DNA of 64,000 bases from Cyanobium sp. CZS48M. GTDB taxonomy: Bacteria > Cyanobacteriota > Cyanobacteriia > PCC-6307 > Cyanobiaceae. Position numbers and translations under genes: made by a program. Each line of letters begins with the position of its first letter. Position 1 is the first letter of the stretch. Of the stretch, positions 2,470 through 9,411 are shown piece after piece. The DNA lies in the NCBI GenBank assembly GCA_030373145.1, contig JAUCZK010000012.1, positions 1 to 64,000 of the forward strand, given 5' to 3'. The notes under the pieces were generated by a model. That model had not been told where the DNA came from, did no database searches, and saw only the letters and a program-made list of their open reading frames with translations.

Positions 2470-3264
2470 TCAGCTGAGCAATGGATCCAGGAAGCTGAGC
2501 GGCCTTGCCATGGTTGCCGAAAAGCCGAGGATGCCGCGGTTCCGGTAGCTGTAGAGCAGCGTGTCGTCGGCCTCCAGGAGGAAGGTGCCGCCCCGCTGGG
2601 TGAGGAAGTCGTCGCGGGGCACGTAGGTGCGCCAGTGGCCCAGCACTTCGCTCATGTTGCGCAGGCGCACCGTGGCCAGCTCGAAGGGTCGCTGGAAGCC
2701 GGTCCCGCCTGCTCTGGCGAAGAACGACCCCTGGATCGGCGGCAGGGGTCCCGCCTGGATGGTCTCCTCCTCGGCGATCCGCTGGGGCGCGCTGCGATCA
2801 CCTGTGTAGCCACGCAGCACCTCGGCCAGGGTGCCGGGGGAGCCGATGCCGGCGCACATCAGCAGCAGGTTCGGCCACGGCCCGCCGATCTGCTGCAGGC
2901 CCTCGTAGAGCCCCAGGGCCCGATGAAGCTCTGGTTCGGCGTCCACCTCGAGGCATTCGAGTGGAAACCCCGTGAAGGCGCAGAAGCGCTGGCGGCCCGC
3001 CTCGTCGCCGATGCCGATCGCCAGCACGGCGATGCCGGCAGATTCCAGCTGCGGCAGGACCGGGACCAGGGCCTGGGCGTATTCGAGGCTGTCGAAATCC
3101 CCCAGCTGGCTGAGCAGCAGCACGAGTCGGCGCTGGCCGCGCTCCATGCCAGCCACTCCCGCCAGCCGCTCCAGCAGGGGAGCGGGTGCAGGCGGGCATG
3201 CCTCGCTGCCGGCTGGACCGGCGGTCGTGGGATCGGAGCTGGGCACAGGCAACGCGACGGTCAA
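2470..3264 (-). CDS. AhpC/TSA-like (thioredoxin-fold) protein, probable TTG start overlapping the stop of the upstream photolyase gene
   Basis: Thioredoxin-fold-like pattern VLLLSQLGDFDSLEYAQALVPVLPQLESAGIAVLAIGIG and RGGTFLLEADDTLLYSYRNRGILGFS; start inferred from the TTGA overlap. Confidence 0.65.
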   Translation of the reverse strand: MTVALPVPSSDPTTAGPAGSEACPPAPAPLLERLAGVAGMERGQRRLVLLLSQLGDFDSLEYAQALVPVLPQLESAGIAVLAIGIGDEAGRQRFCAFTGFPLECLEVDAEPELHRALGLYEGLQQIGGPWPNLLLMCAGIGSPGTLAEVLRGYTGDRSAPQRIAEEETIQAGPLPPIQGSFFARAGGTGFQRPFELATVRLRNMSEVLGHWRTYVPRDDFLTQRGGTFLLEADDTLLYSYRNRGILGFSATMARPLSFLDPLLS

Positions 3265-4775
3265 GGCAGGACCATCGTGGCGTCCTCCAGGAACGCCTCG
3301 GCGCTGGAGCTCAATGCATCCCACCGCTGCGGGTCCATCCGATCCAGCAGGCGCACCATCATCGAGAGGCGGGGGTTGGCCTGGAAGAAGGAGCGGTGGC
3401 CGTCGATGAAGCGCCAGTAGAGGCCATCCCAGATGTCACACCACGGGCCACGCTTGAAATCTCCCATCTTGAGGATGTAGTTGGAGCCGCAGATGTAGGG
3501 CTTGGTGGCAAAGATGCCTCCGTCGCTCATCTGGCCCATGCCGTAGACGTTCGGACCCATGACCCACTCATAGGAATCCAGGTAGCGCTCCATGAACCAG
3601 CGCTGCACTTCCGCTGGGTGGATCTCGCAGAGCAGCATCAGGTTGCTGATCACCATCAGCCGCTCGATGTGATGGTTGTAGCCCGTGCGCTCCAGCCGCT
3701 CGATCGCCGCATCCAGCGGTGGCAGGCCAGTGCTGCCGTCGGTCCAGCAGGGCGCAAGCCGGCGCTGGTGGTTCCAGAAGTTGCTGCTGGTCTGGCGTTC
3801 GCCATGTACGCGATCGATGCCGCGCACGAACTCACGCCAGCCGATCACCTGGCGCAGGAACCCCTCCAGCGAGGCGATCGGCACCGGCTGTTCACCGTTC
3901 TGCCGACGCTGCACGTGGGCCAGGGTGGCCTCGATCACTCCAGCTGGACTGAGCAGACCGATGTTGAGCAGGGGAGAGAGCAGGGAATGGTGCAGGGTGC
4001 CCAGACGCGCACTCAGGGCGTCCTCGTAGGGGCCGAATCCGTCGAGGCGGTCCTGCAGGAACCGCTGCAGCCAGGCGTCGGCCCCGGCGTGATCGAAAGG
4101 AATCCAGAGTTCCCCCAGCACTCCGGGGTGGGCGGCGAAGTGGGTGGTGATCAGCTGCCGCACCGCCGGTTCATGGGGGCTGGCCGTCACAGCCGGCAGG
4201 GGCGGCTCGTTGTAGCCCTTCGGCAGTCGGCGGCGGTTCTCGGCGTCGAAGCTCCAGCGGCCACCGCTGGGGGTGCCATCGGCTTCGAGCAGCAGCCCCA
4301 GGCGCCGGCGCTGCCGCTCGTAGAAGGTCTTCATGAAGGGGCGGCGACGTCTTTCGAACCAGGCCCGACTCTCGGCAACGGATTCAAGGAAGGCGGGTGA
4401 GGGCAGCACGGTCAGCCGCACCAGGTGCTCCCGGCAGAAGCGATGCAGGCTCTGCTCGAAGCTGCGGTCGGCGATCTCCGCCACCTGCAGCTCCTGGTCT
4501 TCGCCCAGCTCCGCCGCCAGCCGCTCCCAGAACGAAACACCCGCTGAAGCCGGCAGTTCGAAATAGCGCACCGCCAGCCCCCGCTCGACCAGGGCGTCGC
4601 GGAAGCTGCGCATCGCCACGAAGGTGTGGAGCAGGCGCAGCTGGTGATACCGGTAGGTGGAGGCCACCGCGAGGTCTTCAATCATCAGCATCCGGCTCCC
4701 GGCAGCGAGCTGCAGCGGTGAGGGGGCGAACCACTCGCGGTGCAGCTGATCGCCGAGGATCAGGGTCAGGACCAT
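3261..4775 (-). CDS. Cryptochrome/photolyase family protein (FeS-BCP/DPRP-like)
   Basis: LILGDQLHREWF N-terminus, NHHIERLMVISNLMLL, YGMGQMSDGGIFATKPY, LYWRFI; ORF track extends to 4904 but the internal ATG at 4775 fits the family N-terminus. Confidence 0.85.
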   Translation of the reverse strand: MVLTLILGDQLHREWFAPSPLQLAAGSRMLMIEDLAVASTYRYHQLRLLHTFVAMRSFRDALVERGLAVRYFELPASAGVSFWERLAAELGEDQELQVAEIADRSFEQSLHRFCREHLVRLTVLPSPAFLESVAESRAWFERRRRPFMKTFYERQRRRLGLLLEADGTPSGGRWSFDAENRRRLPKGYNEPPLPAVTASPHEPAVRQLITTHFAAHPGVLGELWIPFDHAGADAWLQRFLQDRLDGFGPYEDALSARLGTLHHSLLSPLLNIGLLSPAGVIEATLAHVQRRQNGEQPVPIASLEGFLRQVIGWREFVRGIDRVHGERQTSSNFWNHQRRLAPCWTDGSTGLPPLDAAIERLERTGYNHHIERLMVISNLMLLCEIHPAEVQRWFMERYLDSYEWVMGPNVYGMGQMSDGGIFATKPYICGSNYILKMGDFKRGPWCDIWDGLYWRFIDGHRSFFQANPRLSMMVRLLDRMDPQRWDALSSSAEAFLEDATMVLP

Positions 4776-4885
4776 CGCTGTGCCGTCAAGGGAAGGAGGA
4801 CAAGGCTGCTGAGGAAGCGGACCGGGGTTGATGGGGAGATCCACCCAAACGGAGTCCGCAGCCTGGAGGTTGCCATGGTTTTGAA

Positions 4886-5506
4886 TTGGGGTTGGCATCA
4901 GCACGGTTCCCGATCACAAGTCCTCCCCTGGTTCTGGTTCACGGGTTGCTCGACAGCCCAGCGGTGTTCAACAAGCTCCGGCAGGCGCTGGGGGAGCGAC
5001 GACCGCATCTGTTGATCCCTGCCCTTCCCCTGCGCTTCGGCCTCACCCCGATCGAACAGGCGGCTGAGCTGCTCGGTGGCCACATTCAGGCAACCTTCGG
5101 GATGGAGCAGCCGATCGACCTGCTGGGCTTTTCGATTGGTGGGGTCATTGCCCGCAGCTGGATCCAGCTGCTGGAGGGACACCAGCGCACCCGGCGCTTC
5201 ATCAGCGTTGGCAGTCCCCAGCAGGGAACGCTCACGGCTCAGCCCTGGCCGGGGCGCGTGTTCAAAGGCATCGCTGGTCTGAAGTGGGGCAGCGGCCTGC
5301 TGGAGCGCCTCAACAGCAACCTCGACACCCTCCACCGGATCGAGTGCCACAGCTTCTACTCCGCCATCGATCTGGCCGTGCTGCCGGGATGGCGCGCCGT
5401 CCTGCCGATCGGCGCTCGCACGAAGCTGCCGGTGGCAACACACCCCCAGCTACTGCGTGATCAGGCCGCCATCAGGCCCCTGGCCCAGGAATTGCTTCGG
5501 GCGTGA
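4886..5506 (+). CDS. Alpha/beta hydrolase, lipase-like; start uncertain
   Basis: LVLVHGLLDSPAVF oxyanion-hole motif and DLLGFSIGGVIAR (GFSIGG nucleophile elbow). Confidence 0.8.
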   Translation: MGLASARFPITSPPLVLVHGLLDSPAVFNKLRQALGERRPHLLIPALPLRFGLTPIEQAAELLGGHIQATFGMEQPIDLLGFSIGGVIARSWIQLLEGHQRTRRFISVGSPQQGTLTAQPWPGRVFKGIAGLKWGSGLLERLNSNLDTLHRIECHSFYSAIDLAVLPGWRAVLPIGARTKLPVATHPQLLRDQAAIRPLAQELLRA

Positions 5507-5538
5507 TGCCGACCTGTTGAGGCCAACGGCCAATAGCG

Positions 5539-6660
5539 TTGATCAGTACGGCGGCTGAACTGTCGATGGGCTGGGTTGGCGTTTCAATTTTGGTGCGCTG
5601 GCTGCTGGGCTGGGTCCTGGGTCTGCGCCTTCCCGTTCTTCCGGCCGGCTCGCCTGTAAAACCGCCCTCGGTGTCGGTGCTGATCCCCGCCCGCAACGAG
5701 GAGTCGACGCTTCCGCATCTGCTCGATGGTCTCGCCCGACAGAGTTTCAGGCCCCTGGAAGTGATCGTGATCGACGACCACTCCAGTGATCGCACCCCCG
5801 CCATCGCCACCGAGCCCCGCTCTGGTCTGCCCGTCCGTGTGCTGCCCTCGCCATCGTTGCCGCAGGGCTGGTGCGGCAAGACCTGGGCGTTGCACAACGG
5901 TGTACTGGCTAGCCGCGGCGAGCTGCTGGTGTTCCTCGATGCCGACACCGAACCCGGGCCTGAGTTCCTCGAGCGGTTGGTGGCGGTTCATCAGCAGCTC
6001 GGTGGGCTGGTGTCGGTGCAGCCGTACCACCGCACCGAGAAGCCCTACGAGCAGCTCTCGGTGCTGTTCAACCTGGTGGGGCTGCTGGCCGTTCCCCTGG
6101 GACCCGCCTGTGGGGTGGCCTTCGGGCCGGCGATGGCCACCAGCCGCGCCGACTACGACCGCAGCGGCGGTCACGCGGCCGTCGCCGGCAAGGTGGTCGA
6201 AGACTGGTTTCTGGCCCATGCCTATGAAAAGGTCGATCTGCCGGTGAGTGCTTTCCTTGGCTATGGCCAGATGTCTTACCGCATGTATCCGGGCGGTCTG
6301 AACGACATGGTGGTGGGGTTCGACAAGAACTTCGCCACCGCGGCCGGTGAGGTGCGCTGGAGCTGGATGCTGGCGGTGGTGCTCTGGCTCTCCGGACTGT
6401 TCTGGGCCGCCTGGTGCCTGCCGGCCTCCCTGCTGGGCTGGCCGCTGGTGGGTGACCACGCCCTGCTCAGCAACGTGCTGGTCTACGGGGCCTATGTGCT
6501 TCAGCTGCTGGTGATCACCCGTCCGATTGGTCGCTTCACCTGGATCAATCTGCTATTCCCCATCCCGGTGCTGTTTTTCCTCGGGGTGTTCCTGATGGCG
6601 ATCCTCAACCTCAAGCGGGGCCAGGTGCGCTGGAAGGGTCGCACGTTCACCACGCGCTGA
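5539..6660 (+). CDS. Family 2 glycosyltransferase, CrtQ-like; start may be ATG 5566
   Basis: SVSVLIPARNEESTLPHLL, VIVIDDHSSDRTP, LPQGWCGKTWALHNG, LVFLDADTEPGPEFLERLV, GGLVSVQPYHRTEKPYEQLSVLFN, YRMYPGGL..VVGFDKNFATAAG. Confidence 0.85.
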   Translation: MISTAAELSMGWVGVSILVRWLLGWVLGLRLPVLPAGSPVKPPSVSVLIPARNEESTLPHLLDGLARQSFRPLEVIVIDDHSSDRTPAIATEPRSGLPVRVLPSPSLPQGWCGKTWALHNGVLASRGELLVFLDADTEPGPEFLERLVAVHQQLGGLVSVQPYHRTEKPYEQLSVLFNLVGLLAVPLGPACGVAFGPAMATSRADYDRSGGHAAVAGKVVEDWFLAHAYEKVDLPVSAFLGYGQMSYRMYPGGLNDMVVGFDKNFATAAGEVRWSWMLAVVLWLSGLFWAAWCLPASLLGWPLVGDHALLSNVLVYGAYVLQLLVITRPIGRFTWINLLFPIPVLFFLGVFLMAILNLKRGQVRWKGRTFTTR

Positions 6661-7163
6661 TGGCATCACTCAGCGGTTTGGGTGCGGTGGCCGCCACAGT
6701 CAGCCTGTGGCTGCTCTGGTCGGTCGTGATCGGGGCGCTCGCCAATCAGCTGCCAGATCGGCTGCTTGGCCGGCGTGATCCGTATCAGCCTGACCACCTG
6801 GGTGGGGCGCCACTGCGGATCTACGAGCGATGGCTGGGGATCCGGATCTGGAAGCCCTGGATTCCTGATGCCGGCGATGCCCTGCCGGGGGGCATCCGCA
6901 AGGCGAGCCTGGCCCGTCGGGACCCGTTGGCCCTGCAACGGCTGAGCCTGGAGACCAGGCGGGCGGAGCTGGTGCACTGGGCGCTCTGGCCCGCCTGGAT
7001 GGTCACCGCCCTGTGGCTGCCGCCTGCCGGGGTGCTGATCAACCTGATCTTCGCGACCCTGTTCAACCTGCCCTGCCTGCTGCTGCAGCGCTACAACCGC
7101 CTGCGCCTCGGCAGAACGCTGAGCCGGCTGTCCTGCACGAGCCATCCCAGCGGGCGGCCCTGA
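6660..7163 (+). CDS. CrtO-like (glycosyl-4,4'-diaponeurosporenoate acyltransferase family) membrane protein
   Basis: YERWLGIRIWKPWIPDAG, SLETRRAELVHWAL, NLIFATLFNLPCLLLQRYNRLRL resemble the CrtO acyltransferase family; start overlaps the preceding stop (TGATG). Confidence 0.7.
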   Translation: MASLSGLGAVAATVSLWLLWSVVIGALANQLPDRLLGRRDPYQPDHLGGAPLRIYERWLGIRIWKPWIPDAGDALPGGIRKASLARRDPLALQRLSLETRRAELVHWALWPAWMVTALWLPPAGVLINLIFATLFNLPCLLLQRYNRLRLGRTLSRLSCTSHPSGRP

Positions 7164-7170
7164 ACGGTGT

Positions 7171-9411
7171 TCAACGGCACACGAGCTCAGCCTCCAACTC
7201 CAGCGCCACCGCCAGGCCCTCGTCTTCCACGTGCCTGGCCACCACCAGCCGGTGCAAGCCTGCTTCGGTCACGAAGCCATCCAGGGCAGGATCAAACGTG
7301 GCGCAGGCGCGCAGCGGGATGGCCAGGGTGATGTGGTGGGATTCACCAGCGGCCAGGAGCAGGCGCTGAAACGCCACCAGGGTCCGAGCTGGACGCTCCA
7401 CTTTCCGAGCGGGTGGCTCCAGGTACAGCTGGACCACCTCCGCCGCCTCCACCTCGCCAGTGTTGGTGATGGTCACGCTCGCCTGCAGCTGAGTCATCCG
7501 GCCATCAGCGCGCTGGATCTCGGCTGTTAGGTCCGACGCCATGAACTGGCTGTAGGACAACCCGAAGCCAAAGGGATAGGCGGCGGGATGGCCGTCACGC
7601 TGCAGGCGCCGGTAGCCATGCCAGAGGTCGTAGACGACCCGCCGCGCCCGGGGTTCGAAGGGCGGCAGCTGGGAGGCGTCGGCCACCATGGAGAAGGGCA
7701 GGCGGCCCGAGGGCGACACCCTGCCGAGCAGCACATCGGCCAGGGCCGCACCGCCTTGTTCGCCCGGATACCAGAGCAGCAGAAGGCCTGGAACCAGCTG
7801 CCGCCATTCCTCGATGAGCATGGCGCCACCACCCATCAGCACCACCACGGTGCGTGGATTGGCGGCGGCGACCTGGCGGATCAGGGTTACCTGATCCGCG
7901 GGCAGGGTCAGGTCGGTGCGATCACCGGCGGCAAAATCACCACCCTGGCGGGCTGAGGCGAAGCTGGTGATCCAGGCGAGCAGGTCGGCCACTGGTCGCC
8001 ACTGCGGCATCAGCCGGCGCCGCCCCAGCAGGCGCACCATCCACTCGGGCGGAGGGACCAGGCGCAGGATCGGGGCGATGTCCCCCGGGTGGATGTGCTC
8101 CCCCTCCAGGCGCCAGTCCAGACCGGCCACCACCACGGCGGCGTCGCAGTGCGCCGCCAGCTCCGCCGCTGCCTGGGGGCTGCTGCCGCTGGCCTGCTCG
8201 ATCCGCAGATCCGGAGCGGCTGCCCGCAAGCCCTCCAGTGGCGTCAGCACCGCTCCGGGCAGGGGTCTGGTGTCTGAGGATCCCCGATCCCCCAGGTTCG
8301 CCACCGACGCCAGACTCCCGATCACGGCCAGCGAGCTCAGGCCGGTGAAGGGCAGCACCTGCCCCTCGTTGCGCAGCAGCACGATCGAGCTGGTGGCCGC
8401 TTTGCGGGCCAGGGCCCGATGCGCCTTGCAGGAGCGGATCGATGCGGGGTAGGTCCCGGGGGGCACGCCCAGCTGCACCTGCAGCAGCCGCAGCACGGCC
8501 TCGTCTACACATTGCATCGGCACCCTGCCGTCGGCGACGGCCTCGGGCAGGCAACCGGCGAAGACCATGCGGAAGGGCATTTCCAGGTCTTGTCCAGCCA
8601 GCAGGGCGGCGACGCCATCACGCACGCCGAAGATGAAATCGGTGACCACGAAGCCGCCGAATCCCCAGCGCTCCTTGAGGATCCGCCGCAGCAGCTGAGG
8701 GTGCTGGCCGCACCAGAGGCCGTTGACCTGGTTGTAGGCGCTCATCATTGAGCCGGCGCCGGCGTCCACGCAGTCGCGGAAGTGGGGGAGATAGAGCTCA
8801 TGCAGCACCCGCTCACTGACCTGCACGTCGACCAGGAAACGGGAGCTGTCGATCGAGTTAAGGGCGAAGTGCTTGACGCAGGCCACGGCATGGCGTTCCA
8901 GCCCCCGGGTCATGGCGGCACCCATGGCGCCCACATGCACCGGGTCCTCCCCGTAGGTCTCCTGGGCCCTGCCCCAGCCGGGGTGGCGGAGGAGGTTGAT
9001 GCACACCCCGGCCACCCAGTTGGCCCCGAAGGAACGGGCCTCGCGGCCGATGGCCTCACCGATGCGTTCCTCCAGATCGGGATCCCAGCAGGCACCCCGC
9101 GCCATCGGCACCGGAAAGGTGGTGGCCCCACCCTCCAGCGTCACGCCGCGGGGGCCGTCGACGAACTGAAGCCCCGCCAGGCCGAGACGGGGCACCTGCC
9201 CCGCCGGCCACGGATGGCGGTGGGAGGCCTGATGGAGGGCGATGTCCGCCATGCCGGACCAGAACGGGGTGTCGCCGTCGAGCAGCGCCAGCTTTTCGGA
9301 TGTGGTGAGCTCCGCGAGCAGCTTCAGGGCGCGAGCCTGGATCAAGGATCCGTGATCCTTCATGGTCGTCATCGTTGAGGCGCCTGTTCCAAGCGGTGGC
9401 CCAGGCACCAA
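7171..9411 (-). CDS. Glycoside hydrolase family 3 (beta-glucosidase-like)
   Basis: CVKHFALNS, MMSAYNQVNG, ILKERWGFGGFVVTDF, LLWYPGEQGGAALADVLLGRVSPSGRLPFS, FGFGLSYSQF, fibronectin-III-like C-terminus. Confidence 0.92.
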   Translation of the reverse strand: MVPGPPLGTGASTMTTMKDHGSLIQARALKLLAELTTSEKLALLDGDTPFWSGMADIALHQASHRHPWPAGQVPRLGLAGLQFVDGPRGVTLEGGATTFPVPMARGACWDPDLEERIGEAIGREARSFGANWVAGVCINLLRHPGWGRAQETYGEDPVHVGAMGAAMTRGLERHAVACVKHFALNSIDSSRFLVDVQVSERVLHELYLPHFRDCVDAGAGSMMSAYNQVNGLWCGQHPQLLRRILKERWGFGGFVVTDFIFGVRDGVAALLAGQDLEMPFRMVFAGCLPEAVADGRVPMQCVDEAVLRLLQVQLGVPPGTYPASIRSCKAHRALARKAATSSIVLLRNEGQVLPFTGLSSLAVIGSLASVANLGDRGSSDTRPLPGAVLTPLEGLRAAAPDLRIEQASGSSPQAAAELAAHCDAAVVVAGLDWRLEGEHIHPGDIAPILRLVPPPEWMVRLLGRRRLMPQWRPVADLLAWITSFASARQGGDFAAGDRTDLTLPADQVTLIRQVAAANPRTVVVLMGGGAMLIEEWRQLVPGLLLLWYPGEQGGAALADVLLGRVSPSGRLPFSMVADASQLPPFEPRARRVVYDLWHGYRRLQRDGHPAAYPFGFGLSYSQFMASDLTAEIQRADGRMTQLQASVTITNTGEVEAAEVVQLYLEPPARKVERPARTLVAFQRLLLAAGESHHITLAIPLRACATFDPALDGFVTEAGLHRLVVARHVEDEGLAVALELEAELVCR

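Follow-up and report, generated by a model that had tools for sequence, protein, structure and literature searches.

We identified in Cyanobium sp. CZS48M a conserved cassette of four genes, encoding an alpha/beta hydrolase (ABH), a putative CrtQ-like membrane glycosyltransferase (GT2), a putative membrane acyltransferase of the CrtO family (CrtO) and a glycosidase of the beta-glucosidase type (GH3) (Table 1). In our best explanation, to which we assign a probability of roughly 0.4, GT2 and CrtO would make an acylated glycoside whose aglycone is most probably a C40 xanthophyll, while GH3 and ABH would trim or recycle it. The parts of this explanation differ in strength: it is very probable that the GT2-CrtO pair makes an acylated glycoside and likely that GH3 and ABH belong to that pathway too, and the chances are about even that the acceptor is a C40 carotenoid. 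The cassette genes belong to recognizable families, retain their catalytic motifs, co-occur, co-localise and have been lost jointly in one strain; from these observations we infer each reaction, the order of the steps and the acceptor. Positions refer to the window, i.e., the whole stretch of 64,000 nucleotides that was analysed (contig JAUCZK010000012.1, positions 1 to 64,000).

Table 1. Cassette genes and sequence motifs in the window.
Feature	Position	Strand	Description	Evidence
ABH	4886..5506	+	alpha/beta hydrolase, lipase/thioesterase-like; first cassette gene	GxSxG motif GFSIGG; PF02089, E=1.9e-9
GT2	5539..6660	+	putative CrtQ-like membrane glycosyltransferase; 373 aa, TTG start	PF00535, E=9.8e-25
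CrtO	6660..7163	+	putative CrtO-family membrane acyltransferase; 167 aa, ATG start	PF18927, 96.3 bits, E=2.1e-27
CrtO core motif	6951..6977	+	ETRRAELVH, residues 98-106	E98, R101-E103 and H106 invariant
CrtO second motif	7065..7106	+	NLPCLLLQRYNRLR, residues 136-149	in staphylococcal CrtO too
GH3	7171..9411	-	glycosidase, beta-glucosidase type	PF00933, E=2e-36; PF01915, E=5.8e-45
GH3 acid/base loop, start	8025..8105	-	EGEHIHPGDIAPIL..., residues 436-462	continues as insertion to about residue 493

The GT2 and CrtO genes

An earlier note on this DNA had described two open reading frames (ORFs) overlapping by TGATG at 6658-6662, the first resembling CrtQ and the second CrtO. The overlap and its coordinates were confirmed, base 6660 being shared by the two genes, and all the CrtQ and CrtO peptides that had been quoted are present in the ORFs. 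The first gene, in addition to its Pfam match, aligns over its full length with the authentic CrtQ proteins of two staphylococcal plasmid clusters (30-31% identity over 350-357 positions, E about 2e-50), which served as our references and in which the gene order is CrtO, CrtP-like, CrtQ, CrtM, CrtN. The true start of GT2 is likely to be the ATG at codon 10 (5566) rather than the TTG at 5539, since the former aligns with the start of the homologue in PCC 7003. The DxD motif is D134-A-D136; five residues (D80, D134, D136, E221 and R248) are invariant in 39 GT2 sequences, and hydrophobic segments lie near the N-terminus and near the C-terminus. However, GT2 falls below every NCBIfam equivalog cut-off. 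We rejected its assignment as the hopanoid glycosyltransferase HpnB (TIGR03469), for which it scores 98.1 bits against a cut-off of 379 in a genome with no separate squalene synthase, and as CruG (NF045692), for which it scores 74.9 bits against an equivalog cut-off of 600 in a genome lacking CruF. Nor could it be filed as the staphyloxanthin CrtQ, since this would require CrtM and CrtN, neither of which was found in the genome, though it may work like CrtQ. In the phylogenetic tree, the cassette GT2s of cyanobacteria group together, with CrtQ and actinobacterial enzymes on the same side and CruG apart from them with a support of 100/100; the branching order is uncertain for several outer branches of this tree, which are long.

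The second gene is, judged by its profile match, a true member of the Pfam CrtO family, its score lying far above the cut-off of 27.3 bits and the match spanning model positions 5-123 of 123. This is the staphylococcal-type acyltransferase family; the carotene ketolase that is also named CrtO is a different protein. CrtO shares 27-29% identity with the authentic CrtO proteins of the two staphylococcal crtOPQMN clusters (E about 4e-20 to 1.5e-18), and direct alignment revealed the common motifs ETRRAE-VH and N-PC--QRYNR. In 57 CrtO-family sequences, including staphylococcal CrtO, eleven residues are invariant (W64, K65, P69, K81, E98, R101, A102, E103, H106, P138 and Q143), those of the core motif showing no variation across cyanobacteria, Actinomycetota, a Clostridia MAG and Staphylococcus, while in the second motif N136, R144 and R149 are each conserved in at least 90% of the sequences. 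H106 of the core motif is a candidate catalytic base, and the conserved acidic residues may also take part in catalysis. As the motifs of both proteins are kept, their catalytic machinery appears to be intact. CrtO is predicted to be helical with hydrophobic segments at both ends, but its structure model is of moderate quality (pLDDT 71, pTM 0.61) and has no match in the PDB at E <= 0.001, so that no mechanism can be read from structure. Compared with three relatives, dN/dS is 0.18-0.22 for GT2, 0.22-0.33 for CrtO and 0.03-0.33 over all four cassette genes. The homology to CrtQ and CrtO seen in the earlier note is supported; the interpretation given there, taken as a whole, is partly supported, being right in kind and incomplete.

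Distribution and co-occurrence of GT2 and CrtO

PF18927 matches were found in 72 of the 299 genomes sampled from the order (70 of them above the cut-off) and in 12 of the 35 genera; outside Cyanobiaceae, CrtO exceeds the cut-off in just three cyanobacteria among 389 genomes sampled from the class. The cassette is a trait spread through Cyanobiaceae, and not one strain's curiosity. It appears to be scattered through the non-marine members of the family; going by record titles and genome sizes, most carriers live in fresh or brackish water and most non-carriers in the sea. Synechococcus WH 5701 has the cassette in intact form, with a GT2 that is 97% identical. Very weak CrtO-family matches (21 bits, below the cut-off) were also seen in two small-genome g2 strains (L112 in G050, and G238:C40:34459-34716). 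Moreover, a contig titled Bifidobacterium breve MAG (L041, CALPNT020000106.1) carries a cyanobacterial GT2-CrtO pair with 69% and 57% identity to that in the window; it is almost certainly mislabelled or mis-binned cyanobacterial DNA.

In a sample of 52 genomes, a GT2 orthologue (E < 1e-140) was detected in all 36 CrtO-positive genomes and in none of the 16 CrtO-negative ones, where the best match to the GT2 query was no better than 5e-19; since these genomes, like those compared below, are related, such counts are not independent trials, and shared ancestry explains part of the co-occurrence. However, in seven genomes (G135, G142, G022, G043, G198, G141 and G273) the best GT2 copy lies away from CrtO and is nevertheless kept with it, so linkage alone is not the cause. 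Furthermore, GT2 and CrtO match the same 11 of 72,556 plasmid records, namely, nine from Staphylococcus, one from Picosynechococcus and one from Cytobacillus. The coupling of the two genes that had been proposed from their overlap is thereby borne out, both in the genomes tested, where co-occurrence is perfect, and on plasmids.

The acceptor of the sugar

The earlier note had suggested that the pair decorates a substrate other than that of Staphylococcus, giving an acylated glycolipid. A different substrate and an acylated glycoside are both supported. The genome encodes the C40 route, including CrtR (515 bits, cut-off 475), so zeaxanthin is available, and a candidate acceptor common to all Cyanobiaceae, such as zeaxanthin, fits the absence of a partner biosynthetic gene; on genomic evidence alone, a non-carotenoid lipid fits equally well. 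We favour a carotenoid because of precedent: CrtQ and CrtO of Staphylococcus act on a carotenoid (PMC12924280), and in Methylobacterium, whose carotenoid genes form no single cluster, a CrtQ relative (27% identical to CrtQ) paired with an adjoining acyltransferase was proved by deletion to tailor a carotenoid (PMC10448405).

The same chemistry on a non-carotenoid acceptor, such as a glycerolipid, a fatty alcohol, a quinol or an apocarotenoid acid, is a real possibility, though we hold it to be short of probable. Neither in the cyanobacterial loci examined nor on the Actinomycetota contigs nor in the Clostridia MAG was a crt gene recognised beside the pair, and the cassette is uncorrelated with carotenoid gene content, the phytoene synthase and carotenoid oxygenase (CCD) content showing no difference between CrtO-positive and CrtO-negative genomes. 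The same reading gains from a delta-9 acyl desaturase gene located near the cassette or near a relocated GT2 in several genomes of two genera (L037, L049, L078, L081, L094, L130, L131 and L136), which possibly supplies or modifies the acyl chain. Against it stand the carotenoid substrates of the characterised relatives in Staphylococcus and Methylobacterium, and a Cytobacillus locus where a crtI-family gene adjoins both the homologue of GT2 and a reading frame resembling CrtO. The C40 carotenoid reading has difficulties of its own. The characterised CrtQ links glucose to a carboxylic acid in an ester bond, but zeaxanthin has hydroxyls only. In addition, the pigments that a published review gives for Cyanobium are unmodified ones only, namely, zeaxanthin, lutein, beta-carotene and echinenone (PMC8156961), which counts against our best explanation together with the lack of a crt neighbour and of a link to carotenoid gene content.

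Several other leads on the substrate were rejected. The genes next to relocated GT2 or CrtO copies (RRM, HTH, glutamine synthetase III, glycogen phosphorylase, UPF0014 and the delta-9 desaturase) do not indicate it. An apocarotenoid made by an extra carotenoid oxygenase was discarded, since nearly every Cyanobiaceae genome has one copy, with or without the cassette; RedBA-s (see below) has additional fragmented oxygenase matches on its contigs C2 and C9, which its relatives lack. A second CrtISO-like oxidoreductase gene in the source genome (L155, C10:9195-10841), which scores below the named cut-offs and occurs in many but not all Cyanobiaceae, was discarded as a cassette partner because its presence is uncorrelated.

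ABH and GH3 as members of the cassette

A survey of gene neighbourhoods, which the earlier note had proposed for cyanobacteria, confirmed that the pair is conserved; however, the conserved unit is larger, ABH and GH3 having been missed. The pair usually sits between these two genes, and among 40 CrtO loci with wider flanks, ABH is nearby in 33, GT2 in 29, GH3 in 31 and all four genes occur together in 24. In the window, GH3 lies downstream of CrtO and is convergent with it, with 7 bp between the stop codons; promoter and terminator scans gave nothing above chance. GH3 has the N- and C-terminal Pfam domains, the Asp at the nucleophile position and the KHF motif of its family, and its nearest solved structure is the Thermotoga beta-glucosidase 2x40 (E=3.5e-90); its own structure model (pLDDT 50) is too poor for use. 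No signal peptide was seen, and against named NCBIfam equivalogs (arabinopyranosidase, beta-glucosidase and others) its best score is 346 bits for a cut-off of 1300. The acid/base loop is conserved in 34 cyanobacterial cassette GH3s. As for ABH, a general paralogue is present in all Cyanobiaceae genomes tested, and a second copy of the cassette type was found in 18 of 20 CrtO-positive genomes and in no CrtO-negative ones; the ABH of the cassette is thus a cassette-specific paralogue of a hydrolase found in all Cyanobiaceae sampled.

One may ask if only GT2 and CrtO form a functional unit, with ABH and GH3 serving unrelated ends (lipid turnover, sugar scavenging) and kept by shared genome history; we consider this rather unlikely. 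The pair stands without adjoining GH3 or ABH in three non-Cyanobiaceae (PCC 7003, G537 and G583), indicating that these two genes are not essential to it, as well as at the loci of G136 and a second locus of G145, and the presence of an ABH paralogue in every Cyanobiaceae genome tested also agrees with such a pair-only unit. On the other hand, a GH3 orthologue was found in 20 of 20 CrtO-positive and 0 of 16 CrtO-negative Cyanobiaceae, with only a remnant in a seventeenth CrtO-negative genome (G173), and it is retained even where it is unlinked (G136, G160 and G198). The gene also switches sides and yet stays, lying upstream of the cassette in L086 and L088. GT2 has relocated past GH3 in L072 and L095, and in g25 CrtO has moved out while ABH, GT2 and GH3 stay (L132/L133 versus L140/L141). 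In three genomes of g11, a separate ABH copy immediately precedes the relocated GT2, and this duplication likewise speaks against a pair-only unit. The strongest argument for GH3 as a cassette member is its recurrence across phyla, on a single Acidimicrobiaceae contig (L057), where GT2, CrtO and GH3 lie together; this GH3, which is 39-41% identical, has a shorter form of the acid/base loop, sharing with the cassette GH3s an EGE-I loop of unusual type.

A natural loss gives a further line of evidence. Synechococcus sp. RedBA-s (L045, which is G173 by coordinates) shares 92-96% DNA identity with the window where aligned, but has three separate deletions (4783-6454, 6914-7230 and 7490-9318). As a result, ABH is gone, GT2 and GH3 have lost most of their length and CrtO its second half, whereas the genes on either side are still in place. 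The first of these deletions extends into the beginning of the ORF for a DPRP/photolyase-related protein (window 3261-4904, minus strand), which is divergent from the cassette and, in the loci read, lies near it only in close relatives. The deleted part is probably upstream of the real start of that gene, since its homologues align only from residues 24-43. As the four genes have decayed jointly while their neighbours stayed, the cassette genes likely worked together, contrary to a pair-only unit.

A second kind of GT2-CrtO pair, with no adjoining ABH or GH3, was seen at L062, L063 and L101 (G136 and G145) and at L013 and L021. G145 has both kinds and G136 has two ABH/GH3-free pairs, and the existence of two kinds hints at two related products.

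Myxol, hopanoid and C30 pathways

The source assembly is 99.99% complete, and its gene inventory was taken by targeted searches. Its only SQS_PSY-family gene adjoins that of phytoene desaturase and is therefore crtB, leaving no separate squalene synthase for hopanoids. The six amino-oxidase-family proteins are PDS, ZDS, CrtISO, CrtD and two with no name above cut-off. With a single SQS_PSY-family gene, no CrtN and no CruF in this genome, hopanoids, myxol and a staphyloxanthin-type C30 acceptor are unlikely substrates.

That GT2 is an alternative glycosyltransferase of the myxol glycoside (myxoxanthophyll) pathway is highly improbable. Although GT2 has the above weak match to CruG and the genome encodes a full-length CrtD above the cut-off (L154, C1:423733-425163; TIGR02733, 727 bits, cut-off 550), an enzyme known to act in the myxol pathway, CruF is missing from this genome and was found in none of 49 Cyanobiaceae, which makes myxol unlikely, and the tree separates GT2 from CruG. 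CruF with an adjoining CruG-like gene occurs in two of the three non-Cyanobiaceae carriers of CrtO. A true staphyloxanthin-type C30 pathway can practically be dismissed, since, despite the CrtQ and CrtO homologues, the sole SQS_PSY gene lies where crtB would and none of the amino oxidases is CrtN. The earlier note had seen no crtM, crtN or crtP nearby, and for crtM and crtN our searches extend this to the whole genome, as far as the completeness of the assembly allows.

Proposed pathway and comparison with known systems

According to our best explanation, GT2, working on the cytoplasmic side of the membrane, would transfer a hexose from a nucleotide sugar to a lipophilic acceptor. This acceptor would most likely be a C40 xanthophyll that the cell already contains, either zeaxanthin or a compound close to it. 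CrtO would then esterify a fatty acyl group onto the sugar, as in staphyloxanthin, to give the acylated glycoside. ABH may cleave the ester of this compound and GH3 may hydrolyse the glycoside inside the cell, removing the sugar, an intracellular location being proposed because no signal peptide was seen; together the two enzymes could serve in trimming, recycling or proof-reading. Only tentatively, and with more doubt than for the explanation as a whole, we go one step further to a make-and-recycle cycle of acylated xanthophyll glycosides in freshwater picocyanobacteria, in which what GT2 and CrtO build is dismantled by ABH and a dedicated cytoplasmic GH3 with a modified acid/base loop, and a membrane pigment or lipid is tuned thereby in a manner so far undescribed in cyanobacteria.

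The cassette resembles the staphyloxanthin cluster crtOPQMN in having the same two protein families with the same motifs and coupled glycosyltransferase and acyltransferase genes; it differs in the absence of CrtM and CrtN, in the order GT2-CrtO instead of O-P-Q-M-N, in the additional GH3 and ABH, and in an identity of only 27-31%. In green sulfur bacteria, a C40 carotenoid hydroxylated by CrtC is glycosylated and then acylated by CruC and CruD, a scheme similar to ours in its order of reactions. The CruF/CruG pathway to myxol-2'-glycoside also employs a cyanobacterial carotenoid GT2, but CruF is absent here and the cassette GT2 forms a separate clade; we know of no acyltransferase in that pathway. 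META1p3663 and META1p3664 of Methylobacterium, which make an acylated glucosyl carotenoid as shown by deletion, are likewise a CrtQ relative and an adjoining acyltransferase in a genome with scattered carotenoid genes, yet the acyltransferase is of the lysophospholipid type, with no CrtO homologue, and the acceptor is a C30 diacid (PMC10448405). GH3 shares its family, the KHF motif and the nucleophile-position Asp with 2x40, but carries additional sequence behind the residue presumed to be the acid/base Glu.

Implications for Cyanobiaceae

Our literature search (titles and abstracts) returned no description of this cassette in cyanobacteria. If our explanation is true, it predicts acylated glycosides, a class that we did not find reported for picocyanobacteria in the literature searched, in a family whose sampled members are all without the myxol pathway. 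The four genes are now named, and carrier and non-carrier strains whose flanking DNA agrees to 92-96% are at hand; a simple comparison of the two could therefore reveal the product. The cassette is a conserved, hitherto undescribed tailoring system for which a natural mutant, RedBA-s, is available, and it would account for one of the ways in which the genomes of the larger-genome Cyanobiaceae that bear it differ from those of their small-genome relatives that do not.
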